Made by a program: the position numbers and the translations under genes
The notes under the pieces: model-generated
Seen by the model: only the letters and a program-made list of their open reading frames with translations
Told to the model about the DNA's origin: nothing
Database searches by the model: none
Assembly: GCF_014204865.1 (NCBI RefSeq)
Contig: NZ_JACHMG010000001.1
Coordinates: forward strand, 3,374,501-3,438,500
From: Amycolatopsis jiangsuensis
GTDB lineage: Bacteria; Actinomycetota; Actinomycetes; Mycobacteriales; Pseudonocardiaceae
Reading direction: 5' to 3'
Length of the DNA: 64,000 bases
Shown here: one piece after another, positions 18,771 through 60,819 of the stretch
How positions within the stretch are numbered: the stretch's first letter is position 1
Layout: each line of letters opens with the position of its first letter

Positions 18771-18807
18771 CTTCTGGTCGTCGCCGTTGAACGGCGACGA
18801 CCAGAAG
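18771..18807. terminator. Perfect 18-bp hairpin with a GTCGCC core
   Basis: Arms CTTCTGGTCGTCGCCGTT (18771-18788) and its exact complement (18790-18807) flank a single G. The hairpin lies about 100 bp after the oxidoreductase stop, so it could end that transcript, although no T-tract follows. Its core 18780-18798 is a perfect member of the GTYGCC-7 nt-GGCRAC palindrome family seen elsewhere in the window. Confidence 0.7.
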
Positions 18808-18967
18808 GCAGTGTATCCAGGACGCCGTGGCCGTTCGACGGCGACGCATCCCGATGGCGGCACGGGAGGGAGGTCACCTCGTCGCTCGGCGGCGAGACCA
18901 GCTGGATTTCGGCGTCGCCGCTGGGCTGCGGTAGGCAGAGCCCCTCGCGCTGCCATTGGAAGACGCG

Positions 18968-19252
18968 CGTTGCCGCCCGGGAGCCCCGGCGCCAACACTG
19001 GAAGGCGCACGTTGCCACTGGAATGCGCACGTTGCCACCGAGAGTTCGACGTTGCCACTCGGAGACGCACGCTGCAACTGCGGGCCCCGCGCTACCGCCG
19101 AGAAGCGCGCGTTGCCACCGGAAGACACACGTCACCACCGCGAGCCCCCCCCGCTACCGCCGAGAGGCGCGCGTTGCCATTGGGCGGCGCGCGTCACCAC
19201 CGAAAGCCCCGGCGCTACCGCCGCGAGACGAGCGTCGCCTCTGAAAGACGAC
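18968..19252. repeat. Degenerate 20-bp tandem array, about 14 copies
   Basis: Units start near 18968, 18989, 19010, 19030, 19050, 19070, 19090, 19110, 19130, 19152, 19172, 19192, 19213 and 19233. Most are exactly 20 bp apart. Each begins CGYTRCC or CGTCRCC and continues as an RYYG-rich segment ending GCGCR or CCCCG. The array lies between the oxidoreductase gene and the IS701 element. Open frames through it are low-complexity and are not called. The rest of 18674-18967 holds only the hairpin. Confidence 0.85.
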
Positions 19253-19287
19253 AACCTGGTGGCGACCGATTTGGGACAGAGCCCTAG

Positions 19288-20743
19288 TAGTGCTTTGTTA
19301 GGTGTGTCGTTGTGGCTGGTCAGGTGGTTGATGTGATCTCCTGTGCGGGTGCTTTCGGAGGAGATGGACGAGGTTCGTCCGGTGATCGAACAGTTCGCTG
19401 AGCGGATGTTCGGTGGGTTCGCGCGGCGTGATCAGCGGGGGAAAGGTGAGCTGTATCTGCGTGGGCTGATGCTGGACGGCAAACGCAAGTCGATGCAGCC
19501 GATGGCGCAGCGGCTTGAGGTCGATCATCAGCAGTTGCAGCAGTTCGTCACCACCTCGACCTGGGAACACGTCGAGGTCCGGCGACGCCTGACCGGATGG
19601 GCCGGGGAGTTCATCGCCCCGGATGCCCTGGTCATCGATGACACCGGGTTTCCCAAGGACGGCAAGGATTCCCCAGGTGTGGCGCGGATGTATTGCGGTG
19701 CGCTGGGCAAAACGGGGAATTGCCAGGTCGGGGTGAGCGTGCACGCGGTCACCGACTGGGCCTCGGCCGCGATCGACTGGCGGCTGTTCCTGCCCGAGTC
19801 CTGGGACGACGAGAAAGCAACCGACGGCGGGGCCGCGGCCGAGATCCGGCGTCGGCGGGTACGCAGTGCGATCCCAGACGAACTGCGACATCGGGAGAAG
19901 TGGCGGCTGGCGCTGGACATGCTCGACGAGGTCATCGGTGAGTGGGGACTGCCGAGCCGGCCGGTGGTGGCCGACGCCGGCTACGGCGACGCCACCGAAT
20001 TCCGGCTCGGCCTGACCGAACGTGGCCTGACCTACGCCCTCGCCGTCAGCCCGACCGCGACCGCCCACCCCGCCGAGGCCGCGCCGGTGACCCCGGCCTG
20101 GAAGGGCACCGGCCGCCCGCCACAGCCGCGCTACCCCGACCCGCCACAGGACCTGAAATCCCTCGCGATGGCCGCCGGACGATCAGCAGGCCGGTACGTC
20201 CTCTGGCGACACGGATCACGCAAGACTCCCGGCAACCCCACCGCGAGCATGCGCTCCCGGTTCCTCGCGCTGCGCATCCGCCCAGCTAACCGCAACATCC
20301 CCCGCGACAGCGACGGCAGCCTGCCCGAATGCTGGCTGCTGGCCGAGTGGCCTCCCGGCGCACCCGAGCCCACCGACTACTGGCTCTCCACCCTCCCTGC
20401 CGACACGAAACTGCGGGACCTGGTCCGGCTGGCCAAAATCCGCTGGCGCATCGAACACGACTACCGCGAACTCAAAGACGGCCTCGGCCTGGACCACTTC
20501 GAAGGCCGCTCCTGGCTCGGCTGGCACCGCCACGTCACCCTCGCCGCCGTCGCCCAGGCCATCTGCACCCAGCTCCGCCGCACCCCAAAAGCCCCTGCGC
20601 AGGCCTGACCCTCTACGCAGTCCTGCGCGAACTCCAGACCCTGCTCGCGGCCTGGACCGGCACCTGCCACACCTGCCGACAACCCATCCAGCCCCGAACA
20701 CCACCACAGAAACCCCAACTCAACAGCACCTAACAAAGCACTA
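19288..20743 (+). mobile_element. IS701-family insertion sequence, 1456 bp
   Basis: Inverted ends read TAGTGCTTTGTTAGGTG on the left, with the exact complement at 20727-20743. A CTAG on each side (19284-19287 and 20744-20747) fits the 4-bp YTAR target duplication expected of IS701. The element encodes one complete transposase and looks intact. It inserted exactly beside the left end of the neighbouring IS5-type element. Confidence 0.92.
19343..20608 (+). CDS. IS701-family DDE transposase
   Basis: The 421-residue protein has the IS701 pattern. The first Asp is in DALVIDDTGFPKDG with GVARMYCGALGK after it, the second in PVVADAGYGD, and the Glu region is RWRIEHDYRELKDGLGLDHF. The start may be GTG 19343 or ATG 19364; the second has GGAGGAG directly against it. 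The single uninterrupted frame fills most of the element. Confidence 0.93.
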   Translation: MRVLSEEMDEVRPVIEQFAERMFGGFARRDQRGKGELYLRGLMLDGKRKSMQPMAQRLEVDHQQLQQFVTTSTWEHVEVRRRLTGWAGEFIAPDALVIDDTGFPKDGKDSPGVARMYCGALGKTGNCQVGVSVHAVTDWASAAIDWRLFLPESWDDEKATDGGAAAEIRRRRVRSAIPDELRHREKWRLALDMLDEVIGEWGLPSRPVVADAGYGDATEFRLGLTERGLTYALAVSPTATAHPAEAAPVTPAWKGTGRPPQPRYPDPPQDLKSLAMAAGRSAGRYVLWRHGSRKTPGNPTASMRSRFLALRIRPANRNIPRDSDGSLPECWLLAEWPPGAPEPTDYWLSTLPADTKLRDLVRLAKIRWRIEHDYRELKDGLGLDHFEGRSWLGWHRHVTLAAVAQAICTQLRRTPKAPAQA

Positions 20744-20747
20744 CTAG

Positions 20748-21787
20748 GGAGTGTTTTAAAGTCGTAGCCACTCGTTGATCGCGGCGATGTGGACCGTGGC
20801 TTCGTAGCGAACTGCGAGCTTGTCGTACCTGGTGGCCACGGCCCGGTTGCGCTTGAGGCGATTGATCCCGCACTCCACAGCGTGGCGCTGCTTGTACATG
20901 TTCGGGTCGAACGCTGGTGGCCGGCCGCCGGCACTGCCCTTGTTCTTGCGATGGCGAATCTGGTCTGCTTTTTCCGGGATGGTGCATCGGATGCCCCGTT
21001 TCCGCAGGTAGCCACGGTTGACCCGGGACCCGTAGGCCTTGTCCGCCAACACGCGATCCGGGCGGGTGCGAGGCCGGCCGCGGTCGGCACGCGCGACTCG
21101 AATCCGCTCCAGCACCACCTGAAACTGAGGCGAATCACCGCGCTGCCCGGCGGTCAGGACCAGCGAGAGCGGCTTCTGCGCCTGCTCGGTGGCCAGATGC
21201 ACCTTGGTCGTCCAGCCACCCCGTGACCGCCCCAGCGCGTGATCGGCAGGCTCGGGTTCGCCAACCCCGCCAGGCGGTTCAGCCTGCGCAGCCCCATCCC
21301 TTCGCGCCCCGGCAGCGTGCTGATGCGCGCGGGCGACGGTGGAGTCGACGCTGACATCCCAGGTGATCAACCCCGAGGCATCGGCACGAGCCTGCAACAG
21401 TGCCAGGATCATCGCCCACGCGCCGACACGTTGCCACCGGCGAAACAACCCATACACCGCCTGCCACGACCCGTAAGCGGGCGGCACGTCCCGCCACGGC
21501 GTGCCGGCCCGCACCCGCCAGCGGATCCCGTCGATGAGCTGCCGTTTGGTCCACTGCGGTGGCCGGCCAGGCTTCTTCCAGACCGGCAGCATGGGTTCCA
21601 GCACGGCCCACTGCGCGTCGGTCAAGTCCGCCCGCCCGGTGACCGTTACGCTGGCCACGAGGTCTCCGGTATTCCGATTTTCTTGGTCGTTGATCGATCT
21701 ACCGGAGACCTCACCTATTTCATCAACGACACGCCGACACACTGCACCACACGGAAAACCGGCTGCTCACGACTTCGAAACATCTCC
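20748..21787 (-). mobile_element. IS5-family insertion sequence, about 1.04 kb
   Basis: Imperfect ends are GGAGTGTTTTAAAGTCG on the left and, read inward from the right end, GGAGATGTTTCGAAGTCG. The target duplication is unclear: CTAG lies on the left (shared with the IS701 insertion) and CTAA or TAA on the right. A single complete transposase is on the minus strand. It fills the space before the PlsC/OlsA gene. Confidence 0.82.
20756..21658 (-). CDS. IS5-family transposase
   Basis: The 300-residue DDE transposase has an N-terminal DUF4096-type segment ([14 protein letters not shown], then [14 protein letters not shown]). The first Asp is in [14 protein letters not shown], the second in [11 protein letters not shown], and the Glu in [18 protein letters not shown] 21658 follows GGAGA at a good distance; the frame is open to 21742. 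It is one complete frame with no frameshift needed. Confidence 0.92.
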
Positions 21788-21854
21788 TAATGGGGCAAGA
21801 TCAGGCGCGCAAGTCCTTCAGCAGCTGATCTCCGTGGAGGCTCCGGTACGGCAC

Positions 21855-22868
21855 TCAAGCGGAGATGGCGCCACCGTGCCCCGGCGAGGAGGTCGGCTCC
21901 TGGCCAGGCGATGCGCCGGCGTCGCGGCCGGAAGAGGTGGCGGCCGCACGCACAAGCGGAGCCGCGACGTTGTATCCGGCGGAGGCGGCGACAGCGTCGC
22001 ACGCAGCGCGGGTGGCAGTCACCCGGCGGCGACCGCGTTGCGGCGGAATCCGGACCGTACCGAGGGCTGAGTGCACCGAAGCCTCCGCCAGGGCGGCAAG
22101 GGATCGACGGTCCTCAGCCCGGCCCGGGGCGATCTCCGGGCACACGTGCGCCTCCAGGACCAGACCGCGCAACGCGGCGACGCGGCGGAGGGACGCGATG
22201 AGCGATTCCGGGCCGATGAAGGCCGGCCGGCTGGTTTCGCGACCGTCGGACAGGCGGTAGCGCAGCGCGATCGGACGGACTGGCACGCCGCCGTCGATCG
22301 CGGCCTGGAACGTTGCCGTGGTGAAGCGGCCGGAGGCCAGACCGCACCAGGTGGTGCCTTCGGGCGTGACGTTCACCAGCGAGCCGGAGCGCAAGGCGTC
22401 GGCCAGCTCGGTCATCGTGCCCGGCAGCGTACGGAGGCGATCGCGGTCCAGGAAGATGCTGCCGCCGCGGCGGACGAGGGTGCCCAGGACCGGCCAGGCG
22501 CCGATTTCGACCTTGGCGAGCGCACGCATCGGCCGCAAGGAATTGATGGCGACGATATCGAGCCACGAAATGTGGTTGTTCACCACGAGGGCACCGCGGC
22601 CGGCCGGCGCGGCACGGAAATCGTCGCCGCCTCGCACGATCAGACGGACACCGAACGCGCGAAGCACGGACCGGAAAACCGTGCGGACCAGCCGTTCTCG
22701 CCATTTGCTGCCGAGGACGAGTAGCATCGGTGCAGACATCAACGCAGCGAAGACCACGGACGCCGCCGCCGAGTAGCGCAGGACCCTGCGCGGCAAGCCG
22801 ACCGTCGGGGCACCCTCGGTGAGGCAGCCGTCGCCGCACGGGGAAGCCGGCATCCAGGCGTGACTCAT
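21855..22868 (-). CDS. PlsC/OlsA-type 1-acylglycerol-3-phosphate O-acyltransferase
   Basis: The 337-residue protein has the acyltransferase HX4D motif (NNHISWLD) and EGT block (VTPEGTTW), with an N-terminal membrane segment near residues 30-55. It acylates lysophosphatidate or a lyso-lipid at the membrane. Its ATG overlaps the stop of the upstream OlsB-like gene (ATGA), so the two are translationally coupled. That pairing is the OlsB-OlsA arrangement of ornithine-lipid synthesis, although phosphatidate synthesis remains possible. The C-terminal 60 residues are low-complexity. Confidence 0.88.
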   Translation of the reverse strand: MSHAWMPASPCGDGCLTEGAPTVGLPRRVLRYSAAASVVFAALMSAPMLLVLGSKWRERLVRTVFRSVLRAFGVRLIVRGGDDFRAAPAGRGALVVNNHISWLDIVAINSLRPMRALAKVEIGAWPVLGTLVRRGGSIFLDRDRLRTLPGTMTELADALRSGSLVNVTPEGTTWCGLASGRFTTATFQAAIDGGVPVRPIALRYRLSDGRETSRPAFIGPESLIASLRRVAALRGLVLEAHVCPEIAPGRAEDRRSLAALAEASVHSALGTVRIPPQRGRRRVTATRAACDAVAASAGYNVAAPLVRAAATSSGRDAGASPGQEPTSSPGHGGAISA

Positions 22869-23647
22869 ACCTGCACTCCGAGAAAGAACTTGAGGTAACG
22901 CTCGTCGACCTGGTGCAGGTCGAGCAGGACGAAGAAGTCCGCGACGCCGAAGTCCGCGTCGAGTGCCGGCGGGCCGTGCACCTTCGCACCGAGCCGCACG
23001 TAGCCCTTGATCAGCGGCGGCAAGATCGCCCGGTCGGGACGGGTGACGTCGTCGCACGCCCACGGATGCAGCGGCGAAACGCGGCGTGACTCGTCGGCGT
23101 AATGCTTGCTGCGCAAGACATCCCACACACCTGCGGCGTAGCTGCCGCCGTCACTCAGCGGCACCGAGGCGCAGCCGGCCAGATAGCGGTGCCCGGAAAG
23201 CAGCATGTACCGCGCGATTCCGGCCCACACCAGGCTTACGACGGCACCGCTGCGGTGCTCCGGGTGTACGCAAGACCGTCCGGTCTCCACGAGTGACGGG
23301 CGCAGGCTGTCGAGCGCGGTCAGATCGAATTCGCTGTCGGAATAAAGCTTTCCGGCCTGTGCGACACGGTCCGGCGGCAGCATCCGGTAACAGCCGACGA
23401 TCTCGCCGGTCCGGTCGTCACGGACCACGAGGTGGTCGCAGAACTCGTCGAAGTAGTCGACGTCCAGACCGGGGTGCGGGGAAGCGAGCCGCGCGCCCAT
23501 TTCCTCGGCGAACACCTGGTGCCGCAACCGCTGGGCGGCGAGCACTTCGTCATTGCCGTGTGCGACGAGAAGCGAGTACTTCGGCGCGTCCGCGGGGAGG
23601 TCGGCACCCGCCTGATCAGTGCTGACGAGGAGCTGTGACGACGTCAT
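22865..23647 (-). CDS. OlsB-like GNAT acyltransferase (ornithine-lipid type)
   Basis: The 260-residue protein resembles the acyl-homoserine-lactone-synthase/OlsB branch of GNAT enzymes: [45 protein letters not shown]. Family members transfer a 3-hydroxyacyl chain from ACP to ornithine or a related amine. ATG 23647 is chosen, with GTG 23653 as an alternative. It overlaps the PlsC/OlsA gene by 4 bp. The same pair exists as Rv3027c-Rv3026c in M. tuberculosis (recalled), where the product is not settled. Confidence 0.82.
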
Positions 23648-23793
23648 GGTCACAGGTGTACCCGCCGCCGGGAAACCGCGGAGAGTGCCAATCGATGACC
23701 GCTCAGTGCACTTTCAGTTAATTGCCGGTTCTCAGGCTTCTCTCAGGGTCGCGACGACCTCGGAACGCGCCGGAATTCCCAGATCCGGAAACG

Positions 23794-23834
23794 CCGGAGG
23801 CCGCCGCGTACGGCAGGTACGCGGCGGCCTCCGG
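23794..23834 (-). terminator. 18-bp perfect hairpin after etfA
   Basis: CCGGAGGCCGCCGCGTAC (23794-23811) and its exact complement (23817-23834) enclose a 5-nt loop, 12 bp past the etfA stop. It should end the etfB-etfA transcript. No long T-tract follows, which is common in high-GC actinomycetes. Confidence 0.8.
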
Positions 23835-23845
23835 AGCGGGAAACG

Positions 23846-24805
23846 TCAGCCCTTGCGCTTCTCGACCGCCTCGGTCAGCTGCGGCGCGACGTTGAACAGG
23901 TCGCCGACCACACCGAAGTCGGCGATCTCGAAGATCGGCGCCTCCGCGTCCTTGTTGACGGCGATGATCGTCTTCGACGTCTGCATGCCGGCCCGGTGCT
24001 GGATCGCGCCGGAGATGCCGAGCGCGATGTACAGCTGCGGCGACACCGTCTTACCGGTCTGCCCCACCTGGAACTGGGCCGGGTAGTAGCCGGAGTCGAC
24101 AGCCGCGCGCGAGGCGCCGACGGCCGCACCGAGCGAGTCGGCCAGCTTCTCCACGACGTCGAACTTGTCCGCCGAACCGACGCCACGGCCACCGGAGACG
24201 ACGATCGACGCCTCGGTCAGCTCCGGCCGGTCACCACCGACCACCGGCTCGATGCCGGTGACCTTGGCCGACTTCGCCGCGTCCTGCGCCGGGATTTCGA
24301 CGGTCTCCTCGGCGGCGGCGCCGTCCGCGGCCTCCGCCTCGACCGCACCGGGACGGACCGAGACGACCGGCACGCCCTTGGCGGCCTTCGACTTCACCGA
24401 GAACGCGCCACCGAAGATGGACTGGTCCACGGAACCGTCGGAGTTCACACCGACCGCGTCGTAGAGCAGACCGGACCCGAGACGGAACGCGACGCGCGCG
24501 GCCACCTCCTTGCCCTCGGCGCTGGCGGCGACGAGCACCGCGGCAGGCGAGGCCTGCTCAGCGAGCTTCGCCAGCACGTCGACCTTCGGGGTCACCAGGT
24601 AGCCGGTCGCGTCGTCGCCTTCGGCGACGTACACCTTGGCCGCACCGTGGCCGGCGAGCGCGTCCTTGGCCTTCGACGCGGTGCCGGCCGGGCCCACCAC
24701 GACGGCGGAGGGCTCACCCAGCGCGCGAGCGGCGGTCAGGAGCTCGAGCGTGACCTTCTTGACATCACCGTCGACGTGGTCGACGAGGACGAGTACTTCA
24801 GCCAT
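23846..24805 (-). CDS. etfA: Electron transfer flavoprotein alpha subunit
   Basis: The 319-residue EtfA has its C-terminal FAD domain clearly present ([20 protein letters not shown], then [20 protein letters not shown] and [19 protein letters not shown]). With EtfB it accepts electrons from acyl-CoA and other dehydrogenases and passes them to the respiratory chain. It lies 27 bp after etfB in one operon and is followed by a strong hairpin. Confidence 0.97.
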
Positions 24806-24832
24806 TTCCGGAATCCTCCTCGAAACCGTGTC

Positions 24833-25618
24833 TCAGATGAGCTTCTGCGCGACCAGGTACTCGGCGGCCCTGCCGCCGCCGTCGCCCTCGTCCTCGACCT
24901 TCTCGCCCGCGGTGCGCGGCGGCTTCGGCGAGGATTCGACGACGGCCGACCAGGCGTTGCCGAGTCCGACCTCGCCCGCGTCGATGCCCAGGTCGGCGAC
25001 CGTCAGCGTCTCGACCGGCTTCTTCTTCGCGGCCATGATGCCCTTGAACGACGGGTAGCGCGGCTCGTTGATCTTCTCGCTGACGCTGACCAGCGCCGGC
25101 AGATTCGCCTCGAGGTGGGTGATGCCGTCCTCGGTCTCGCGGTCGGCCTTCACGTTCGAGCCCTCGACAGTCAGCTCACGCACGTAGGTCAGCTGCGGCA
25201 GGCCCAGCAGTTCGGCGACGATCGCGGGCACCGCGGCACCCCGGCCGTCGGACGCCTCGTTGCCGGCGATGACCAGGTCGTAGCTCTCGACCTTGCCGAC
25301 GGCGGCCGCGAGCACCTTGGCGGTGGCGATCGCGTCGGAGCCGTGCAGCGCCTCGTCCGAGACGTGGATCGCCTTGTCGGCGCCCATCGAGAGAGCCTTG
25401 CGGATGGCGTCGGTCGCGCGGTCCGGGCCGACCGAGATCACGGTGACCTCACCCTCGCCGGCTTCCTTGATCTTGAGCGCTTCCTCGACAGCCTTCTCGT
25501 TGATCTCGTCGAGCACGGCGTCGGCGGATTCGCGGTCAAGCGTGTTGTCGGAACCGGAGAGCTTCCGCTCCGAGTAAGTGTCCGGTACCTGCTTGACCAG
25601 GACAACGATGTTCGTCAT
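24833..25618 (-). CDS. etfB: Electron transfer flavoprotein beta subunit
   Basis: The 261-residue EtfB begins MTNIVVLVKQVPDTYSERKL. The adenine-nucleotide-binding signature region is present (VESYDLVIAGNEASDGRG, then AVPAIVAELLGLPQLTYV). It forms the AMP/FAD-binding heterodimer with EtfA. ATG 25618 is used because the open frame beyond it to 25744 is not conserved-looking. The operon promoter lies at about 25640-25740 and holds a near-palindrome. Confidence 0.97.
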   Translation of the reverse strand: MTNIVVLVKQVPDTYSERKLSGSDNTLDRESADAVLDEINEKAVEEALKIKEAGEGEVTVISVGPDRATDAIRKALSMGADKAIHVSDEALHGSDAIATAKVLAAAVGKVESYDLVIAGNEASDGRGAAVPAIVAELLGLPQLTYVRELTVEGSNVKADRETEDGITHLEANLPALVSVSEKINEPRYPSFKGIMAAKKKPVETLTVADLGIDAGEVGLGNAWSAVVESSPKPPRTAGEKVEDEGDGGGRAAEYLVAQKLI

Positions 25619-25671
25619 GGGTCTTCTTCGACCTCCCGGTAGGGGCCGGCTCTCGGCCGCGGGACAGTGCT

Positions 25672-25685
25672 CTACTGGCCGGTAG
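25672..25685. promoter_or_regulatory. Near-palindrome in the etfB promoter region
   Basis: CTACTGGCCGGTAG is symmetric except for the T/G pair, and TAGATT follows on its right. It lies about 55 bp upstream of the etfB start. A TetR-type repressor site controlling etfBA is a guess from its size and symmetry. Confidence 0.35.
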
Positions 25686-25861
25686 ATTAGGGGCATTCCG
25701 GCGCCAGGACCCGCCGAGGTGACGGCATTCACCTGGATGTGCAATCTATTGGGACCATCGTCCTGGTATTCGGTCGGTTAGCCCGTCCAGACGACCTCTC
25801 GCCCGATCGGAGGAACAGCCGCCTACTGCCAGTAGGCCGTCAGGCATTAACCTCCGAAAGC

Positions 25862-26701
25862 ATGTCCGCGCACATCGCCGTAGTCACCGACTCGACCTCG
25901 TGCTTGCCCGCGCATCTCGCCACCCAGTGGAGAATCGGCGTCGTGCAGGTCCAGCTCCAGGTCGGAGACCAGACGGACGACGAGCACCGCTTCGACCGTG
26001 GTCGGCTCGTCGAGGCCATGAAAGCCGGCACACCCGTGTCGACGGCTCCTCCCGATCCCGGTGCCTTCTTCTGGACATATCAGGACGCGGCGTCCGCAGG
26101 CGCGTCCGCGATCGTCAGCCTGCACATCTCCGGGCGGCTGTCGGACACCGTGCAATCCGCCCGTGAGGCAGCGCAGCAGGTCCGGATCCCGGTGCACATC
26201 CTCGACAGCGGCACGTCCAGCATGAGCCTCGGTTTCGCCGCGGTTTCCGCCGCGCGCGTGGCCGGCGCCGGCGGTCAGCTCATCCGGGTGCTCGACGCCG
26301 CGGAACGACGCGTCCGCGCGTCCACCGAACTGATCTACGTGGACACCCTCGAATACTTACGGCGGTCGGGACGGATCGGTGCCGCCCAGTCGATGCTGGG
26401 CAGTGCCCTCTCGATCAAGCCGTTGCTCACCGTCCGCAACGGCGAGGTGAGCCCGCTCGCCCGCGTTCCGGGCACCAAACGAGCGATGAACCGGCTCGTG
26501 GACCTCGCCGCGAAAGCCGCCGGGGACCAGCAGGTCGATCTCGCCGTGACACGCTTCGGCTCGGACGAGCGCGAAGTGGTCCGGCGGCTGAAGGAACGTA
26601 TCCCCGGAGCGGGTGACGTCCTCGTCGGCGATGCGAGCACCGTGATCGGCGCACACGTCGGCCCCGGCGCGCTGAGCATCACGGTGTCGCCGGTGAACTG
26701 A
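25862..26701 (+). CDS. DegV-family fatty-acid-binding protein
   Basis: The 279-residue protein opens MSAHIAVVTDSTSCLP, the DegV motif whose Ser/Thr residues hold the fatty-acid carboxylate. Later family motifs are seen: LHISGRLSDTVQSAR, DSGTSSMSLGF, LEYLRRSGRIGAAQS and the C-terminal GPGALSITV. DegV/FakB proteins present fatty acids to a kinase or carry them. No fakA neighbour is visible. It is convergent with the next gene, overlapping its 3' end by 23 bp. Confidence 0.93.
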   Translation: MSAHIAVVTDSTSCLPAHLATQWRIGVVQVQLQVGDQTDDEHRFDRGRLVEAMKAGTPVSTAPPDPGAFFWTYQDAASAGASAIVSLHISGRLSDTVQSAREAAQQVRIPVHILDSGTSSMSLGFAAVSAARVAGAGGQLIRVLDAAERRVRASTELIYVDTLEYLRRSGRIGAAQSMLGSALSIKPLLTVRNGEVSPLARVPGTKRAMNRLVDLAAKAAGDQQVDLAVTRFGSDEREVVRRLKERIPGAGDVLVGDASTVIGAHVGPGALSITVSPVN

Positions 26702-27110
26702 CCTCCTCGCGTCGCCCCGGCAGGACGAGCGTCGCGAGTGGGACCACCACGGTCAACGCGAGCGTCACCACGATGAGCACCTGGTCGGCCACCGGGAAGT
26801 GCGCCAGGTGACCGAGGTGGTAGCCGATGTGCGGGACGGAGAACAGCAGCGCCGCGATTGACGCCATCCGGGCGACGGCTGTGGTACCGATCACGGCGGC
26901 GCCGATCAGCACCGCGGTGAGCGCCAGGCTGAGGCTCCCGAAGTCGCGGATCAGGTGTTCGTTGAAGGGGCCGTCCATCGCCACCCATCCGCTCCGGAAG
27001 CCGGGAAAGACCAGGTAGAAGCCCATCGGGATGGCTGTTGCCCAGATTCCTTGCACCGCTTCGGCGAGCCCGAACAGGATCAGGAGGACGCGCGTGATTG
27101 TCCGTTGCAT
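26679..27110 (-). CDS. Four-helix membrane protein of unknown function
   Basis: The 143-residue protein begins MQRTITRVLLILFGLAEAVQ and has four hydrophobic segments (about 5-25, 57-80, 83-100, 108-132) joined by short loops, with HIGYHLGHLAHF between the third and fourth. It is an integral membrane protein; I do not recognise the family. The 3' end overlaps degV by 23 bp. The methyltransferase gene starts divergently 52 bp from its start. Confidence 0.7.
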   Translation of the reverse strand: MQRTITRVLLILFGLAEAVQGIWATAIPMGFYLVFPGFRSGWVAMDGPFNEHLIRDFGSLSLALTAVLIGAAVIGTTAVARMASIAALLFSVPHIGYHLGHLAHFPVADQVLIVVTLALTVVVPLATLVLPGRREEVSSPATP

Positions 27111-27161
27111 GCAGCGGGAACGAGACGGGCGGACCGGATGTGACGCGCTAGGGTCGCGCAG

Positions 27162-29461: not shown

Positions 29462-29481
29462 CACTGTGGAAGGAACCTGAC

Positions 29482-29973: not shown

Positions 29974-29984
29974 CCTGATCCCGC

Positions 29985-31613: not shown

Positions 31614-31656
31614 CCGGCTGAGCGGCCGGCAGCGAACCTTCCCGGCGCCTTCGCCG

Positions 31657-51183: not shown

Positions 51184-51195
51184 GACACGCTCTTA

Positions 51196-53181: not shown

Positions 53182-53186
53182 CGTAT

Positions 53187-54161
53187 TCAGCTCTCCGGGC
53201 GCGCCTCGGCGTGGCGGGCCAGCCGCCCGGCCAGCTCCCGCACCTCGTCACGAAGGGCGTCCGGCTTTTCGATGACGAAAGGGCAGTCCAGCGTGGCGAG
53301 CGACGACGGAATCCAGTCGAGGCGCTGCGCCCGGATGCGGATCCGCACCCAACTGCTGTCGAGTTCCGTGAGAGTGGCGATGGCCGGCGGGAGGACGTGG
53401 CGGATCTGCCCGGCCGTCGTCCGGACCCGTACTGACACCTCGTGCCGGTGCGGCGCCTCGGCGATCGCGGTGAGCACCTGCCGGGCCGGATCGAAACCGG
53501 CCGGCGCGGTGAACTCCCCGGCGCACTTCCGGACCGTCGTGATGCGGTCGACGCGGAACGTGCGCACCTCGCCGCTTCCGGAATCGTGGCCGGTCAAGTA
53601 CCAGCGTCCGGAGTGCGCGACGACGCCGTAAGGGTGCACGACCCGTTCGCTGGCACGCCCGTGACCAGCGACGTAGCCGAGTTCCACCGGACGCCGATCC
53701 CGTGCGGCTTCCGCGACCGTCAGCAGCACCTCGGCTTCGGTGGTGCGCGCCGGTCGTACGGGCGTGGTGAAGCCGGCGACGTCCAGCAGCGCGTCGAGCC
53801 GCCGGCCGAGCGGTTCGGGCAGCACCCGCCGCACCTTCGCGGCCGCGCTCTCGGCGGCCGCGACCGACGTGGCGATCAGCCCCGCCCGCCGGCCGGCGAC
53901 GAGACCGAGCACCACCGCGAGAGCCTCTTCGCCGGTGAGCATCAACGGGGGCATCCGGTAACCCGGAGCCAGCCGGTATCCGCCGTAGCGGCCGCGCACC
54001 GAGCGGACCGGCACGTCCAGGTCGACGAGGTGCTCGACGTACCGACGGACCGTGCGCTCGTCCACGTCGAGCCGGCCGGCGAGTTCGGCGACGGTCCGGG
54101 TGCCCCCGCCCTGGAGAATCTCCAGCAGGGCCAGTACGCGGGAAATGGGCCGGGTCACCAT
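53187..54161 (-). CDS. WYL-domain HTH regulator (YafY/DeoR type)
   Basis: The 324-residue protein has an N-terminal HTH_11 domain (VAELAGRLDVDERTVRRYVE, then VRSVRGRYGGYRLAPGYRMP). The WYL domain carries GRWYLTGHDSGSGEVRTFRV, and a C-terminal WCX-like part follows. It probably controls the divergent VOC gene 107 bp away. The ligand is unknown. Confidence 0.9.
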   Translation of the reverse strand: MVTRPISRVLALLEILQGGGTRTVAELAGRLDVDERTVRRYVEHLVDLDVPVRSVRGRYGGYRLAPGYRMPPLMLTGEEALAVVLGLVAGRRAGLIATSVAAAESAAAKVRRVLPEPLGRRLDALLDVAGFTTPVRPARTTEAEVLLTVAEAARDRRPVELGYVAGHGRASERVVHPYGVVAHSGRWYLTGHDSGSGEVRTFRVDRITTVRKCAGEFTAPAGFDPARQVLTAIAEAPHRHEVSVRVRTTAGQIRHVLPPAIATLTELDSSWVRIRIRAQRLDWIPSSLATLDCPFVIEKPDALRDEVRELAGRLARHAEARPES

Positions 54162-54268
54162 GCAATCATCGCAATACCGGGCGGAATCTGTCCACTATCG
54201 GTTCTAGCGTGACCGGTGTTCCCGGAGGGCGTCATCGGAAGGCCCCTCTCGTACCGGAAGGATCCACC

Positions 54269-54673
54269 GTGCAGTTCACCTCGGTCCGCATCATCACCGA
54301 CGACGTCGACCGGCTTGCCGGGTTCTACGAACAGGCGATCGGCATCGTCCCGCGCCGGCCCGCCCCGCAGTTCGCGGAGCTCGTGGGAGCGTCCTGCACG
54401 CTCGCGATCGGCAGCGCCGAGACGATGGCGTTGTTCGGCCCCGGCGCGGCAGTGCCCGGATCGAACCGGACCGTGCTGCTCGAGTTCCTGGTGGACGACG
54501 TCGACCGGGAGCACGAGAGGCTGTCCGGTTTCGCGCCCGCTCCCGAGGTCGTGCAGCCGCCGACCACGATGCCGTGGGGGAACCGTTCGCTGCTGTTTCG
54601 CGATCCCGACGGCAACCTGGTGAACTTCTTCACGCCGGTCACCGACGAGGCACGCGCTCGGCTGGCACGCTGA
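54269..54673 (+). CDS. VOC-family (glyoxalase/bleomycin-resistance) protein
   Basis: The 134-residue single-domain protein begins VQFTSVRIITDDVDRLAGFY. It shows the paired beta-alpha-beta-beta-beta modules and ends in the usual RDPDGNLVNFFTPV strand, with the metal-binding Glu region of VOC folds. It may bind or modify a small toxic compound. GTG 54269 follows AAGGA; the frame is open upstream to 54209. The WYL regulator is divergent. Confidence 0.88.
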   Translation: MQFTSVRIITDDVDRLAGFYEQAIGIVPRRPAPQFAELVGASCTLAIGSAETMALFGPGAAVPGSNRTVLLEFLVDDVDREHERLSGFAPAPEVVQPPTTMPWGNRSLLFRDPDGNLVNFFTPVTDEARARLAR

Positions 54674-54895
54674 AGTTCGTCGTCGTGCTTGTGCTTGTGC
54701 AGCGGGGGTGCTGGACACCGCGGTCGCGGTGGTGACGGCCGCGCGAACCCGGACGCCGGCCGCTGGAAGCTCGTCGCCTGCCCGGTCGGGGCTCCGCGGC
54801 CCGGGTCGAGCCAGGTCGGCCCGGCCCGGGTCGGGGTCGGCGATGCCGCGCAGGGTGGCCCGCTCGAATCCGTGCCCCTTGCCCGCCGAACCCGA

Positions 54896-55948
54896 TCAGG
54901 GCAGTTTCACCTCGACGTCGAGCCCGCCGTCCGCGCCGGGCACCGCACTGACCGTGCCGTGATGCGCGGCGGCGATCGAGTGCACTATGGACAGCCCGAG
55001 GCCGGAGCCGGCGCGGTGGTTCATCCGGTCGGCCGACAGTCGCCGGAACGGGGCGAACAGCGACGGGACCGCCTCGGCGGGCACCCGTTCGCCGGTGTTG
55101 CGCACCGTCAACGCGGGCGTCACGCCGACCACCACCTCGACCCGTCCTCCCTGGTCGTTGTACTTGATCGCGTTCTGCACGAGGTTGCCGATCAGCCGCT
55201 CCAGCAGCACCGGATCGCCGGGAACCGTCCGTTCGGCCAGCGTCCGGGTCACCGTGAGTTCGCGTTCGGCGAACCGGTCGGCGTACGAGGTGAGGACCGA
55301 GCCGACGAGTTCGTCCAGCCGCACCGGCACCGTGCCCGGCAGTCCGCGGTCGGCCTCGGCGAGCACGAGCAGGCCCTCGATCAACTGCTCGTTGCGCTCG
55401 TTCACCAGCAACAGCTGTGAAGCCAGCCGGCTGACGTCCGCACCACCGCCTCCGGTGACCATGGCCACCTCGACCAACGTCCGCTGCACCGCGAGCGGCG
55501 TTCGGAGCTCGTGCGAGGCGTTGGCGGCGAACCGCCGTTGCCCCTCGAAGCCGACTGTCACCCGGTCGAGCAGGGCGTTCACGGCGGCGGCGAGCTCACG
55601 GATCTCGCCTTCGAGCCGGTCCAGCTGCACGCGCTGGCCGAGGTTCTGCGGGCCCAGCTGCTCGATGGTGGAGACGAGATCCGGCAGCAACCGCAGCACC
55701 CAGCGGGCGACCCGGCGGCCGAGTACGACCAGCACCACGACGATCACGATCAGCAGCGCGAGCCAGGCAAGCGCACCCCAGGTATTGCGGCAGCGGGTCG
55801 TCTTCGGGCACATGTCGCTGCTCACGAAGGTCCCGAGCGGCACCCGGACCGCCTCGGGCAACGCGTAGGCCAGCAGCAGACCACTCAGCACCGCGCCCGC
55901 GCACGCCAGCTCGATCCGTCCGCGCAGCGACGCACCGGCCCGGCTCAC
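54896..55948 (-). CDS. Two-component sensor histidine kinase
   Basis: The 350-residue kinase has two membrane helices (about 15-35 and 60-85) enclosing a short outer loop with SSDMCPKTTRC. A HAMP-like linker follows, then H box NASHELRTPLAV, N box LIGNLVQNAIKYN and G box GSGLGLSIVHSI. GTG 55948 overlaps the response-regulator stop by 4 bp (GTGA). The small loop with two Cys suggests membrane, redox or cell-envelope sensing. Confidence 0.93.
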   Translation of the reverse strand: MSRAGASLRGRIELACAGAVLSGLLLAYALPEAVRVPLGTFVSSDMCPKTTRCRNTWGALAWLALLIVIVVVLVVLGRRVARWVLRLLPDLVSTIEQLGPQNLGQRVQLDRLEGEIRELAAAVNALLDRVTVGFEGQRRFAANASHELRTPLAVQRTLVEVAMVTGGGGADVSRLASQLLLVNERNEQLIEGLLVLAEADRGLPGTVPVRLDELVGSVLTSYADRFAERELTVTRTLAERTVPGDPVLLERLIGNLVQNAIKYNDQGGRVEVVVGVTPALTVRNTGERVPAEAVPSLFAPFRRLSADRMNHRAGSGLGLSIVHSIAAAHHGTVSAVPGADGGLDVEVKLP

Positions 55949-56604
55949 TCGCCAAGCTGGTAGCCGGCGCCGGACACCGTCCGGACCACCGCCGGTTCGC
56001 CGAGTTTCCTCCGCAGCGTCATCACCGTGACCCGCACCGTGTTCGTGAACGGATCCGCGTGCTCGTCCCATGCCTTCTCCAGCAGCTCTTCCGGGCTGAC
56101 CACCCGCCCCTGCGCCCGCAACAGCACCTCGAGGACGGCGAACTCCTTGGGGGACAACGACAGTGGCCGCCCGTCGCGGGACGCGAACCGTTTCGCCGGG
56201 TCGAGCTGCACGCCGGCACACTCGAGCACCGGCGGCAGCGCCGCCAGCGCCCGCCGGGCCAGCGCGTGCACCCGCGCCACGAGTTCGGCGAAAGCGAACG
56301 GCTTGGTGAGGTAGTCGTCCGCGCCGAGCCCCAGCCCGTCCACCCGGTCCCGGATACCGGCCGCGGCGGTGAGCATCAGCACCCGGGTTTCGCGTTCGCT
56401 CTCCGCGATCTTGCGGCAGACCTCGTCGCCGTGCACCAGCGGCAGGTCGCGATCCAGCACGACCACGTCGTACCGGTGCACCATCACCCGCTCGAGCGCG
56501 GCGTCGCCGTCGTAGCAGACGTCCACCGCCATGCCCAGATGCCGCAGACCTTCGGTGAGCGAGTCGGCCAGCAGCTGCTCGTCCTCCGCCACGAGTATCC
56601 GCAT
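55945..56604 (-). CDS. OmpR/PhoB-type response regulator
   Basis: The 219-residue regulator has a receiver domain (phosphoacceptor Asp in VVVLDRDLP, acidic pocket VAEDEQLL) and an OmpR winged helix (FAVLEVLLRAQGRVVSPEEL, then NTVRVTVMTLRRKLGEP). It is coupled by overlap to its kinase and is probably phosphorylated by it. The mannosyltransferase gene lies divergently 100 bp upstream and may be a target. Confidence 0.95.
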   Translation of the reverse strand: MRILVAEDEQLLADSLTEGLRHLGMAVDVCYDGDAALERVMVHRYDVVVLDRDLPLVHGDEVCRKIAESERETRVLMLTAAAGIRDRVDGLGLGADDYLTKPFAFAELVARVHALARRALAALPPVLECAGVQLDPAKRFASRDGRPLSLSPKEFAVLEVLLRAQGRVVSPEELLEKAWDEHADPFTNTVRVTVMTLRRKLGEPAVVRTVSGAGYQLGE

Positions 56605-56704
56605 CAGGTTGTCCCCACGAGAACCACTACACCGCCGTCCGGATAAAGATCGGATAAGCGCCGATCTTAACGGCCGCGCACCGGCTGCTGGCTAGACCTG
56701 TCTC

Positions 56705-58561
56705 ATGATCTTCGCCGGAAGATGCACACCGCACCGGTTCGCCACTCGGCTCGGGCTCGCCGGAATGGGCCTGATCGCGCTGGGCGCGCTCGGCGCGGGC
56801 GCGACGCTGCTGAACAACCCCGTGCTCACGCGGCTGCTTCCCGACGCGACCGGCTCGGCCAAAACCCCCGCCACCGCGGTGGTTTACGTCGGTATGGGAC
56901 TGCTGTTCGCGGCTTGGGTCCGATTGGGACACCTCGTCCAAGCGGGTATGTCGACCATGCAGGAGATGCGCCGGACTGTCTGGCTGTGGGCCGCACCGCT
57001 CCTTGTCGCGCCGCCGTTGTTCAGCACTGATCTGTACACGTACCTGGCGCAGGGCGCGGTCGCGCAGGCCGGTCTCGATCCGTACTCACACGTGCCGGCC
57101 GAGCTGTCCGGCGCGGTCATCGACAACGCCGCGGGGCACTGGCTGTCGGTTCCTTCACCCTACGGACCGTTGTTCATCCTGATCATCAAGAGCGTGCTGG
57201 GACTGGCGGGAGACAATCCGCTCCTCGGCGCGTTCCTGACCAGGCTGGTACTGACAGCCGGGCTGTGGTTGCTGTGTCTCGCGATGCCGAAGCTGTGCCG
57301 ACACCTCGGCGGGCGGCCGGCGAGTGCACTGTGGATTTCCGCAGCGAACCCGTTGGTGCTGCTGCATTTGGTTTCCGGTGGGCACAACGACCTGCTGATG
57401 GTCGGTCTGCTGGCCTCGGGCACCGCACTCGTGCTCGCCCGTTTTCCGGTGCGTGGCTTCGCCCTCGTGGCGATGGCGGCCGCGGTCAAAGTAACAGCCG
57501 CGGTGGCGTTGCCGTTCCTCGTCTGGGTCTGGGTGTCGCATCGTTCCGAAGGGAGGCTGACGTGGAGGCATTTCCTGCGCGTCGGAACCGCTGCCGTGTC
57601 CACAGTGGTCGTCTCCTTCGGACTGTGCAGCGCGGTCGCTGGTGTCAGCCTCGGGTGGCTTTCCGCGCTGGACGGCAACATGGTGCTGGAGCCACTGCTG
57701 TCCGTGCCGACTTCACTCGGGAAGGTCGCCGCCATGATGGTGTCCGGTGTGGACACCGAGCAGATGGTCTCCGGGTTCCGGACGGCCGGATGGTTCGTGC
57801 TCGCCGCGGTGGTCGTCGTGCTGTGGTGGCGGTCGCGCCGCGGTGGCGCGACCGCGATCCGCGGGGCGGCAGGGGCAATGCTGGCCACCGTGCTCCTCTC
57901 GCCGGTGACGTTGCCGTGGTACTTCAGCTGGCCGTTGACGCTCGGCGCGGCAGTCAGATGGCCGAGTTCCCGCGCTGTCCTTCCCGTCGTCGCGGGAGTT
58001 TCGGCCTGGCTGGTGATAGGCAGCCATCCGGATGGCAAAAGCCAGCTGCCGCCGTGGGGATTCGCGGTCCTGTTCGTGGCTTCGATCGCGGTCGGAGCCG
58101 GTATGTGGCACGGAAAAATCGCGCGCTCGCGGGCCGGTCGTCCTGTTAGGCTTTCGGGATCAGCAGAGTTCAGAGTTTCTTCACCCGGATGGGAAAGTCC
58201 AGCGATGCGCGCCGACCTGCGTGACGACCTGAAAGTCGCCCTCAAAAGCCGCGACCGGGCCGCCGTCACCGCACTGCGTTCCGCCCTCGCGGCGATCGAC
58301 AACGCGGAGGCGGTGCCGGTCGGTCCGACCGTGGACACGACCGTCGGAAACGAACGGGTGGCGGGCGTGGCAGTCGGACTGGGCGCGGCCGAGGTCCCAC
58401 GCCGCGACCTCACCGACGCCGACGTGCGATCGATCGTGGAGAACGAGGTACGCGAGCGCACCGAAGCGGCCGAACAGTACGAACGGCTGGGCCGCGCCGA
58501 GCAGGCCGAACAGCTACGCGCGGAAGCGGCTGTACTGCAGCGGCATCTGGAGGTTAGCTGA
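56705..58561 (+). CDS. Multi-pass mannosyltransferase (MptA/MptB-like) in frame with a C-terminal YqeY domain
   Basis: The 618-residue frame first encodes a GT-C type protein with 10-12 membrane helices. STDLYTYLAQGAVAQAG and DPYSHVP form the acidic first-loop motif, with PSPYGPLFILI and SGGHNDLLMVG typical of actinobacterial alpha-1,6-mannosyltransferases that build lipomannan using polyprenyl-phosphomannose. From residue 501 (MRADLRDDLKVAL) a GatB/YqeY domain follows with no stop between. The second part has its own possible start at 58205, so this may be two genes in one frame. Confidence 0.82.
   Translation: MIFAGRCTPHRFATRLGLAGMGLIALGALGAGATLLNNPVLTRLLPDATGSAKTPATAVVYVGMGLLFAAWVRLGHLVQAGMSTMQEMRRTVWLWAAPLLVAPPLFSTDLYTYLAQGAVAQAGLDPYSHVPAELSGAVIDNAAGHWLSVPSPYGPLFILIIKSVLGLAGDNPLLGAFLTRLVLTAGLWLLCLAMPKLCRHLGGRPASALWISAANPLVLLHLVSGGHNDLLMVGLLASGTALVLARFPVRGFALVAMAAAVKVTAAVALPFLVWVWVSHRSEGRLTWRHFLRVGTAAVSTVVVSFGLCSAVAGVSLGWLSALDGNMVLEPLLSVPTSLGKVAAMMVSGVDTEQMVSGFRTAGWFVLAAVVVVLWWRSRRGGATAIRGAAGAMLATVLLSPVTLPWYFSWPLTLGAAVRWPSSRAVLPVVAGVSAWLVIGSHPDGKSQLPPWGFAVLFVASIAVGAGMWHGKIARSRAGRPVRLSGSAEFRVSSPGWESPAMRADLRDDLKVALKSRDRAAVTALRSALAAIDNAEAVPVGPTVDTTVGNERVAGVAVGLGAAEVPRRDLTDADVRSIVENEVRERTEAAEQYERLGRAEQAEQLRAEAAVLQRHLEVS
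58205..58561 (+). CDS. GatB/YqeY-domain protein (possible separate start)
   Basis: From ATG 58205 the last 118 residues make a compact YqeY-like protein: LKSRDRAAVTALRSALAAID, then RSIVENEVRERTEAAEQY. Close actinobacterial relatives are, from memory, stand-alone proteins of this size. A weak GGGAAAG precedes the ATG. Function is unknown; YqeY is related to the tRNA-binding tail of GatB. Confidence 0.6.
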   Translation: MRADLRDDLKVALKSRDRAAVTALRSALAAIDNAEAVPVGPTVDTTVGNERVAGVAVGLGAAEVPRRDLTDADVRSIVENEVRERTEAAEQYERLGRAEQAEQLRAEAAVLQRHLEVS

Positions 58562-58586
58562 CTTCCTGCGGCTGGAGGCGGGGACC

Positions 58587-58718
58587 GGGCCGGGTCACAA
58601 TCCGGCCGGTCTCGATCCGGGCCACATCACAATCCTGGCCAGCTCACAATCCGGGCCGGGTCTCGATCCGGGCCGGGTCTCGATCCGGGCGGGTTTTCGA
58701 TTCGGGCGGGTCTCGAGC
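58587..58718. repeat. 17-bp tandem array, about eight units
   Basis: Units alternate GGGCCGGGTCTCGATCC and GGGCCRSRTCACAATCC; most are 17 bp, two are 15. The array is in the gap after the YqeY domain. No coding frame is supported. Confidence 0.8.
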
Positions 58719-58779
58719 GGGACCTCGAGCTGGGTCGCGCGCCTCGAATCGGGGCGCGCTGGCTTGGGTGCCGTTCCGA

Positions 58780-58813
58780 CGCGCGACCGTCCGGGGTCCC
58801 GGACGGTCGCGCG
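58780..58813 (+). terminator. 16-bp perfect hairpin
   Basis: CGCGCGACCGTCCGGG and its exact complement surround a 2-nt loop, about 220 bp after the YqeY stop. It probably ends that transcript. The remaining gap to 59226 has no recognisable gene. Confidence 0.65.
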
Positions 58814-59226
58814 GGGGACGATGTCATCTCGACAGGGCGCGTCAGGTGTTCAGGCCGGGCTCGATCTTCCCGCGAGTGTTCACGGGTGGCCGCCACCTCT
58901 GCGAATCCATGTGGGTGCGCCAGGGAGGCTTGCCCGGGTCCGGCTACGGGTCCCCAAGGCTGAAGGCCGTGGGTTCGGTCGTTGTCCTGGCAGTTGCTGT
59001 GTCGGCGGCGTACTGGCGAAAGTTGCGAATTCGACCGCAGCTACTTGTGGTCGTTGACTTCTCCGCGGTGAACTCGGCGACAGTTGCGCGCTAACAACGA
59101 TTGCGGGCGACTGTCGCTACCGGTCGTGGCGGCCGGGGTGTGACGGGCGGCGCGTTGTGGCACGCGCGGACGTGACCGTGGCCGATGGGCGCCGAATCCG
59201 ATGAAAGACTTCGGCCACAGCGGGGG

Positions 59227-60132
59227 TTACGCCAAGTCGGCTGTCTCGGGAGCCGGATGTGCGAGAGCGGCTGGGTCGCGGAAGGCGTCTACGACTGGCG
59301 ACAAGCATTGGTCCGTGAGCCCGTCGTCGAGGACGAGCACGGTGCCTCGGATTTCCAGGGGCGGATCGAGAGGCAGCGCACGCACGGTGCCGGTCATGCT
59401 GCTCACCTGACCGGCGGGCAACAGTGCCCAGCTGCACCAGTTCACGCCCAGCTCGACCATGGTGTCCTCGACGGTTCCCAGCGGGCGGCCTTCGCGCGGG
59501 GTGAAGCCCACCTCGCGCAGAGCCGTCTTCACAGCTTCGTGCAGCGCGGGATCCGATCGTGGCGAGGGGAGGCGCAGGACCTCCTCTGTCAGGTCCGTCA
59601 GGCGCACTGACCTGCGGTTCGCCGCTGGGTGGCGAACCGAAACCACGGCGTGCAGCGGTTCGGTCCACGCCAGCGAGACCCGCAGGCCCTCCGCTTGCGT
59701 GACGCCGCGGGCCAATGCCAGGTCGAGGTCGCCGCGCCGTAGGGCGGCCAGCCGTTCGGGGAGTGGAAGGTCGACCAACACCGTCTCGAACGACGGGCCC
59801 AGCCGCCGCAACGTGTCGATTCCACGTTGCAAACGGGCGGCGAGTCCGGGAACAGTGCCGATCCGGATTGTGCCGGTGGGCGGCCCGGCAGCAGCGCGCA
59901 CTCGATCGACGGCCTGAAGGGCTTCGCGCGCCGCGGCCAGCACACGGTTGCCGGCGTCGGTGAGCCGGACCGTGCGAGGTGAGCGGTCCAGCAGCCGCAC
60001 GCCCAGTTCACGCTCGAGCCGAGCGACCTGCTGGCTGACCGCCGGCTGAACGATGTGCAACCGCTCAGCGGCACGGCCGAAGTGCAACTCCTCCGCGACC
60101 GTGACGAAATACCGCAGCGCCCGCAGTTCCAT
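59227..60132 (-). CDS. LysR-family transcriptional regulator
   Basis: The 301-residue protein begins MELRALRYFVTVAEELHFGR, the LysR winged helix (AAERLHIVQPAVSQQVARLE). A periplasmic-binding-like ligand domain follows from about residue 90. ATG 60132 has a strong AAGGAGGG. No divergent intact target gene lies next to it; the 1-kb gap upstream may hold a decayed one. Confidence 0.94.
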   Translation of the reverse strand: MELRALRYFVTVAEELHFGRAAERLHIVQPAVSQQVARLERELGVRLLDRSPRTVRLTDAGNRVLAAAREALQAVDRVRAAAGPPTGTIRIGTVPGLAARLQRGIDTLRRLGPSFETVLVDLPLPERLAALRRGDLDLALARGVTQAEGLRVSLAWTEPLHAVVSVRHPAANRRSVRLTDLTEEVLRLPSPRSDPALHEAVKTALREVGFTPREGRPLGTVEDTMVELGVNWCSWALLPAGQVSSMTGTVRALPLDPPLEIRGTVLVLDDGLTDQCLSPVVDAFRDPAALAHPAPETADLA

Positions 60133-60248
60133 GAATCCCTCCTTGACCTGCGACGATCAGAATACGTGATTGCTACGGAAGCGGAGTGCGTCTCGGTCCG
60201 TGGACTCGTGCGTCTGTGCAGTGGTGACGTGTGGATCGGGTTCGCTTC

Positions 60249-60710
60249 ATGTCAGCCGGAGTGACCAGTCTCGAAGACTTTCGCGCCGAGACGGCGGGGG
60301 CACCGCGCACGGTTTCGACAGCGCTCTGCACCTACCGGTGACAGGCCGGGCTGGACCGGCTCACGATGGTGCCGTTTTTCGGCGACGGTCCCGCTGAGCT
60401 GGGCACATCCGTCTTGCCGACTTATCTCGGCGCCCGACGGTGCTGGCCGCCCGGACCGCTCATCGCGCAGGCAATGACCTGTGGACAGCTCACGCTGGGT
60501 ATCGACGTCGAGCCACGAAAAGGTGGTTTCCGGTCGGTGGGGTTGCCGTACACGGCACCCATCCGGCACAACCGCGGGTACTTGGAATTCCGCGGCCGCT
60601 GCTGCCCGGCAAGTACATGCGTACTCGGGTGGGTTGCCTGCGGTTGTCGCCAGTCGCGAGAGAGGGTTGCTCTACTGGCCGTGATCACCGGCAGCGTTTC
60701 TGTTCAGTAG
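60249..60710 (+). pseudogene. Possible decayed coding sequence divergent from LysR
   Basis: One frame reads MSAGVTSLEDFRAETAGAPR and on to ALCTYR, then a TGA, then QAGLDRLTMVPFFGDGPAEL and LGARRCWPPGPLIAQA. Both halves are in the same frame with one in-frame stop. I do not recognise the family with any assurance. It may be a remnant of the gene once controlled by the LysR regulator. Confidence 0.25.
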
Positions 60711-60726
60711 TGGCGGAAGAGCGTCC

Positions 60727-60819
60727 GTCGCCATCCAGCGGCAACGCTCTGGCCGGCACAGCCATCGCCATCCAGCGGCAATGCCCTGGCCGGGGCAGCC
60801 GTCGCCGTTCTGTGGCGAC
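60727..60819. repeat. Three GTYGCC palindromes at exact 37-bp spacing
   Basis: GTCGCC-ATCCAGC-GGCAAC (60727), ATCGCC-ATCCAGC-GGCAAT (60764) and GTCGCC-GTTCTGT-GGCGAC (60801). The second has A and T at the outer pair in place of G and C, a compensating change that keeps the pair. CTCTGGCCGG-type DNA joins them. This is in the 1.08-kb gap 60133-61210, otherwise without a supported gene. Confidence 0.82.

Follow-up and report, generated by a model that had tools for sequence, protein, structure and literature searches.

The 64-kb stretch of the Amycolatopsis jiangsuensis chromosome analyzed here (hereafter the window; C1:3374501-3438500 in an 8.05-Mb genome) contains many copies of a 19-bp palindrome, in which the arms gTYGCC and GGCRAc are separated by 7 bp. 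This family is confined to approximately 180 kb of the 8-Mb genome and is not a genome-wide repetitive extragenic palindromic (REP) family. The analysis established directly a set of strictly spaced, regionally confined sites, a constraint on the DNA that is independent of reading frame, and an origin that a single gain could account for. From these, we infer a putative dimeric DNA-binding protein that would bind the sites and mark or fold one chromosomal zone, a reading to which we assign a probability of approximately 0.5.

In the window, the sequence 5′-GTYGCC-N7-GGCRAC-3′ occurs in 12 exact copies, while 100 dinucleotide shuffles gave a mean of 0.08 and a maximum of 2; with up to one mismatch, 49 copies were found (shuffle mean 3.1, maximum 8). 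An earlier note on this DNA had proposed a repeated, mainly intergenic palindrome family of an actinomycete and a comparison with dinucleotide-shuffled sequence; that comparison, now made, confirms the family. The unit consists of the half-sites TYGCC and GGCRA, inverted and exactly 7 bp apart (495 versus approximately 18 scaled from controls; 985 kb, six regions), and the second-highest inverted spacing, 12 bp, is at control level (63 versus 58). Other spacings, chiefly everted (e.g., 16 bp, 33 versus 4.9), are above the mostly coding controls yet low, and we tentatively attribute this excess to array units and non-coding composition. The GCC and GGC cores of the 19-bp site lie 10 bp apart, which is one helical turn. 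The centre, described in the earlier note as a variable loop, is constrained and follows RYTSARY. The fuller consensus, GTYGCCRYTSARYGGCRAC, was converted into a symmetric weight matrix, which was used with a threshold of 11 bits.

Based on the whole A. jiangsuensis genome, 24 of the 30 exact copies of the arm pattern are located within 151 kb (3285023-3436039). The pattern TCGCCRYTSARYGGCGA gave the same picture, since all 11 perfect copies and 22 of the 24 one-mismatch copies lie inside 3257656-3435318 (178 kb; 33/35 together); at up to two mismatches, there are 122 copies genome-wide, as opposed to 41 for the pattern read backwards. A blind palindrome scan of two further 200-kb pieces of the same genome, at the terminus and the origin, found no comparable family. 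Because a dif-like site lies at 1.17 Mb and dnaA at 5.17 Mb, the zone is mid-replichore; a role as a mark of the origin or terminus was rejected, the zone being at neither. Its distance from the dif-like site is 27-34% of the chromosome length in seven carriers of the family and three non-carriers (genomes are given by our handles; G009 has a second, one-mismatch dif-like site). A. jiangsuensis has a single dif-like site, ATAATGTACATTATGTCAA (C1:1169429-1169447); of 10 other Amycolatopsis genomes, 9 have the identical sequence and G036 is one base off. The blind scan also revealed a parS-like palindrome, TTTCAC/GTGAAA, with three copies in one place near dnaA (C1:5.06-5.26 Mb).

Among 80 genomes of the genus, A. 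jiangsuensis included, 13 have at least 20 copies at up to one mismatch and the other 67 have at most 10. Reading the regions of two of these 67, G033 (8 copies) and G009 (6), showed both to be carriers whose copies have diverged further. G020 (10 copies) has none at up to two mismatches across the orthologous 200 kb; G022 and G036, whose regions were also read, are non-carriers, and the remaining low-count genomes were only counted. Exact copies fall in one region in G051 (12/12 within 86 kb) and G001 (14/14 within 122 kb), and in G028, 27 lie within 144 kb among the 29 matches listed of 33. In fragmented assemblies, the copies are on two contigs (G024, G057) or on one (G047, G041, G010). In 48 genomes belonging to other families of this order, the count never exceeds 6 copies. 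Additionally, we inspected 80 named 20-kb loci around one zone gene, of which six have 4-6 copies at up to one mismatch (A. nivea, A. rubida, A. echigonensis, 'A. orientalis DSM 43388', A. circi and A. jejuensis); the A. saalfeldensis locus has 6 copies at up to two mismatches, and the remaining 73 loci have no more than one each at that threshold. In a zone-gene tree of 48 rows, comprising the window and 47 of these loci, the 8 carrier rows form one side of a branch with support 92/77, adjoining the A. vancoresmycina/kentuckyensis group, and the window is placed among A. circi, A. echigonensis, A. nivea, A. rubida and A. jejuensis. In this tree, the named carriers form one clade, and the origin of the family is compatible with a single gain.

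In ten carrier genomes, including that of A. jiangsuensis, the copies are located in the same region of orthologous core chromosome, with shared proteins mostly 70-98% identical, and largely in common intergenic gaps. The zone genes include those for isocitrate lyase, malate synthase, pyruvate carboxylase, an aconitase-family protein, a SerA-like dehydrogenase, acetolactate synthase, GatB and NAD-dependent DNA ligase. Gap 60 measures 346-1331 bp and contains 3-15 sites in nine carriers, versus 67, 72 and 4 bp, site-free, in the non-carriers G020, G022 and G036. In eight carriers, gap 117 spans 287-1715 bp and contains 3-17 sites in a translated array, versus 35, 35 and approximately 0 bp, site-free, in the same non-carriers; in G051, the gene caller placed this array within a gene. 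The remaining hot gaps are common to some carriers only. With genes called by a codon-usage script written for this analysis, the site density per kb of intergenic DNA in the ten carriers is 3.9 in convergent gaps (389 sites in 99 kb), 1.8 in tandem gaps and 0.34 in divergent gaps (28 in 83 kb). Flanks appear unrelated among the arrays shown; some arrays are degenerate tandem units of approximately 33 to 121 bp, and the largest cluster reaches 20 sites.

The sites are constrained at eight core positions (T2, G4, C5, C6, G14, G15, C16 and A18), which were named from a set without G041 and G010, while the weight matrix included both. In alignable orthologous gaps (G028 to G051 and G041 to G010), the core differs at 16/567 positions and the flanks at 588/2671, with 11-12% at fourfold sites; in the reverse reading direction, the same two pairs gave 26/613 for the core. 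When only strictly orthologous sites with flanks at least 70% identical were considered (four pairs, 49 sites), the differences were 13/392 (3%) in the core, 317/1934 (16%) in the flanks and 64/342 at the soft positions. Since the sites were chosen in one species by motif match, a fair neutral rate for the core is about half the flank rate. Nevertheless, the core deficit persists after this halving (9/280, p=0.0006; 35 sites, two independent species pairs). The strict spacing and the position-specific conservation are more easily reconciled with a protein that recognizes the DNA sequence than with a conserved hairpin.

Two arrays are translated. In gap 117, the sites lie in one frame and encode SPxxG(D/E) repeats in the nine carriers with resolved neighbours, with a matching cluster in G010; the array forms the N-terminal tail of an NlpC/P60-domain protein for which a single membrane span is predicted by eye. 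In non-carriers, this tail is short (G020, G022) or no spacer remains (G036). A similar tail precedes a putative FecCD-type permease at gap 65 in G000, G001, G041, G010 and G012; at this gap, G009 is site-free and the G028 and G051 arrays are out of frame. Within 133 SPxxG(D/E/N) motifs, serine is encoded by TCG in 128/133 cases (284/769 elsewhere), glycine by GGC in 128/133 (371/853 elsewhere) and glutamate by GAA in 59/74 (78/256 elsewhere), where "elsewhere" includes some whole proteins or upstream frame for tails whose end was not located (both arrays of G033 and gap 65 of G001). Other arrays of at least five sites are mostly out of frame, with a G009 cluster at 5271095 in frame. Because the codons of the in-frame copies spell the palindrome and most other arrays keep no frame, the DNA rather than the peptide seems to be conserved. 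An alternative for the coding copies would be recent seeding, which is weakened by their diverged spacers. Long (SG)n and (SD)n runs also occur in the permease tail frame of G001 (C2 near 654-656 kb), a sign of very fast tail evolution; this frame may partly precede the actual start.

The weight matrix gave 41 matches in the window: 20 intergenic, 11 in one translated tail and 10 in called genes, part of the latter probably by chance. The features are listed below in window coordinates; only the open frame has an assigned strand.

1..60819: right-hand part of the zone, which starts approximately 117 kb left of the window (C1:3257656) and ends at approximately window position 60819 (C1:3435319).
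2794..3001: two weaker intergenic sites (2794 and 2983; matrix scores 16.4 and 12.5).
18780..18845: two sites, at 18780-18798 (exact, inside a longer perfect palindrome; matrix score 28.1) and at 18827-18845 (one mismatch; matrix score 19.1).
30072..30293: three sites (30072-30090, 30203-30221 and 30275-30293), flanked by genes for a glutathione peroxidase-like protein and a glycosyltransferase.
30131-30155: 25-bp palindrome amid this site array, with GTCGCC/GGCGAC arms and a 13-bp centre rather than 7.
32720..32967: four sites (32720, 32812, 32894 and 32949), the last within the loop of a larger stem.
41607..41712: two sites (41607 and 41694), matrix matches.
46511..48541, plus strand: open frame of the 676-aa NlpC/P60 protein (Pfam PF00877, residues 568-664, E 5e-23); its N-terminal tail is the array.
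46537..47086: eleven sites in a single reading frame (SPxxGD repeats), several spaced 33 bp.
60727..60819: three sites 37 bp apart (60727, 60764 and 60801), matrix matches.

The earlier note had placed at least twelve copies in five gaps. All five gaps contain copies where it located them, with seven of the 12 exact copies (18780, 30072, 30275, 32720, 32949, 60727 and 60801); the others there are near-matches, and the element at 30131-30155, which had been counted as a copy, is a longer palindrome with a different spacing. The five exact copies outside those gaps are at 2983, 31122, 61521, 46537 and 46993. Those at 31122 and 61521, each within an ordinary gene, probably arose by chance, and those at 46537 and 46993 are members of the in-frame array, which the earlier note had missed. 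Beside the 18780 sites, the 18960-19240 segment contains degenerate repeats with single half-sites (CGTTGCC) approximately 20 to 60 bp apart, mostly without a second half-site. In the G001, G051 and G028 regions, we also observed a palindrome richer in A and T, TGAAGG-N3-CCTTCA (GTGAAG-N5-CTTCAC in G001), with 6-8 copies per 160 kb.

Could the sites act as hairpins in RNA or single-stranded DNA, REP-like or terminator-like at the 3′ ends of genes? The sequence is palindromic, with sites crowded between convergent 3′ ends and few in divergent gaps, and 21/875 sites have stems extended by at least 4 bp versus 6/875 shifted controls, so that the larger stems mentioned in the earlier note exist as a small minority; 614/875 sites have no extension (controls, 635/875). 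However, pairing does not appear to be maintained. In a covariation test of 225 sites from six genomes, double changes at partner positions were below expectation (4 versus 10.2 at positions 3/17, 13 versus 26.1 at 7/13 and 19 versus 31.9 at 8/12). Since non-partner pairs show biases of similar size in both directions and the letters of the sites correlate with strand skew in the flanks (Spearman 0.43, 527 sites), we read this depletion as skew, not structure. The covariation suspected in the earlier note is thus absent; the A-T pair at 60764, on which the suspicion was founded, does exist but is a single case. Positions 5, 6 and 16 are nearly invariant, although G-U pairing would tolerate C to T, and the translated arrays often show C-A mismatches in their sense strand (A-type letters, 65/150 at gap 117 and 30/100 at gap 65). 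A T-tract accompanies 21/427 sites versus 787/12000 random intergenic places; with no enrichment, an intrinsic terminator was rejected. No Rfam family was found in the window at the gathering score. The REP-associated transposase (RAYT) family PF01797, which the earlier note had described as absent from the window, was found in 0/22 genomes, that of A. jiangsuensis included, with the control positive in 5/14 known genomes. The regional distribution, the lack of PF01797 and the depleted double changes led us to reject the REP/RAYT interpretation of the earlier note, whose reading overall is partly supported, and we consider a hairpin function improbable. Operators for a local transcription regulator, controlling a clustered regulon, are less probable still and can almost be dismissed: a rigidly spaced palindrome suits a helix-turn-helix dimer, but the sites are least frequent in the divergent, promoter-bearing gaps, their clusters reach 20 sites and the sampled zone genes are mainly unrelated metabolic and housekeeping genes.

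The main competing explanation is a locally expanding palindrome array, similar to the neisserial dRS3 repeats and their Neisseria intergenic mosaic elements (NIME). According to this explanation, which is possible if rather unlikely, the palindrome would serve as a site or hot spot of recombination, with spread reaching nearby gaps only; units between palindromes would be duplicated and lost, and the conserved core would be the requirement of the recombination enzyme. The two 5-6-bp arms around a 7-bp centre also resemble a core site of a tyrosine recombinase. In its favour, the hot-gap arrays reach approximately 1.7 kb and contain tandem units, spacers evolve faster than fourfold sites (22% versus 11-12%) and palindromes bound the gained and lost units; PMC3898611 describes NIME arrays of 200-2700 bp, in which dRS3 is a 20-bp repeat with 6-bp inverted ends. 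It explains the unit turnover and the fast spacers well and the conservation of in-place sites less well, since these are conserved at the core; moreover, the A. jiangsuensis genome is without the family outside the zone, and no viral contig carries an array (three viral contigs have one site each, in a search with a narrower pattern). Several observations nevertheless weigh against a protein that marks or folds the zone. In the few aligned gaps of species with approximately 95% gene identity, the units gained or lost (approximately 41, 91 and 95 bp) end at palindromes, as a recombination element would also explain, and the core conservation could partly be a product of ongoing copy turnover. 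More distant pairs keep the same order of rates, with core rates of 4-13%. Approximately 40 kb inside the zone (C1:3300-3343 kb) are without copies at up to two mismatches in A. jiangsuensis, G001, G028 and G033. MatP (PF06303) was found in 0/13 genomes, with the control positive in E. coli only, and 12 zone genes exclusive to carriers, read by eye, yielded no clear candidate for the binding protein; ArsR-like and XRE-cupin-like regulators, transporters and enzymes were considered, none convincingly.

We nevertheless favour a DNA-binding protein. Besides the confinement, the strict spacing, the core conservation and the palindrome-following codons, the half-sites vary in their letters without compensating changes, which speaks for such a protein. 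The 19-bp palindrome would be bound by a putative dimer that contacts the two half-sites from the same side of the helix. One Amycolatopsis lineage would have gained dozens to more than 100 such sites in approximately 90 to 180 kb of core chromosome, as far as the regions were read, mostly placed in spacers downstream of genes, plus the two translated tails. The putative protein would occupy the sites jointly and mark or fold a domain, as MatP does at the E. coli terminus via matS. Bacterial chromosome interaction domains are similar in size to the zone. More tentatively, the family may be a private address system: many dozens of sites for one putative dimeric nucleoid protein, within no more than approximately 180 kb of mid-replichore DNA and partly in protein tails.

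Several known systems share features with the family. The palindrome matS of the E. coli terminus macrodomain, also short and limited to one chromosomal region, has 13 bp and occurs 23 times within 800 kb (PMC3330122). In contrast, the zone family is mid-replichore and not at dif, denser, arrayed, gained within one genus and without MatP. The matS consensus has one match in 400 kb of the A. jiangsuensis genome and none in 12 other regions. The dRS3 repeats have a variable centre and occur in intergenic arrays, with 646-725 copies per neisserial genome (PMC3898611), versus a single zone here. The palindromes of the present family also form arrays of hundreds of bp to approximately 1.7 kb, as in gaps 60 and 117; nevertheless, the dRS3 repeat ATTCCC-N8-GGGAAT has no match in 13 regions and, as far as the arrays shown go, the spacers have no shared set of RS elements. 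REP sequences and bacterial interspersed mosaic elements (BIME) are likewise short, intergenic, palindromic and multicopy, whereas the present family is regional, without a RAYT gene and without compensatory covariation. A contrast is given by TGAATGASTCATTCA, a different, REP/BIME-like palindrome found genome-wide in the 10.7-Mb non-carrier G036 in 558 copies; the matches listed are mostly pairs with starts 30 bp apart and span positions 12 kb to 1.84 Mb, and no PF01797 protein was found in G036. Rickettsia palindromic elements have likewise been inserted in frame into coding genes, which makes them comparable with the two translated arrays. The present family differs in its 19-bp unit, in having other arrays that are non-coding and in codons that preserve the palindrome within the coding copies. 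We found no published report of the zone family in the accessible text of the open-licence literature.

Short repeats in bacteria are usually genome-wide. A clade-wide family in one core region, conserved as DNA in translated and untranslated copies alike, calls for a mechanism that acts regionally. The close site-free relatives share these genes, mostly in unchanged order, and are natural controls for comparison with the carriers. If a recombinase were responsible instead of the proposed binding protein, the family would be an actinobacterial counterpart of the neisserial repeat arrays. If the putative protein exists, the family would represent domain marking, or region-specific chromosome organization, away from the origin and the terminus and gained within one genus.

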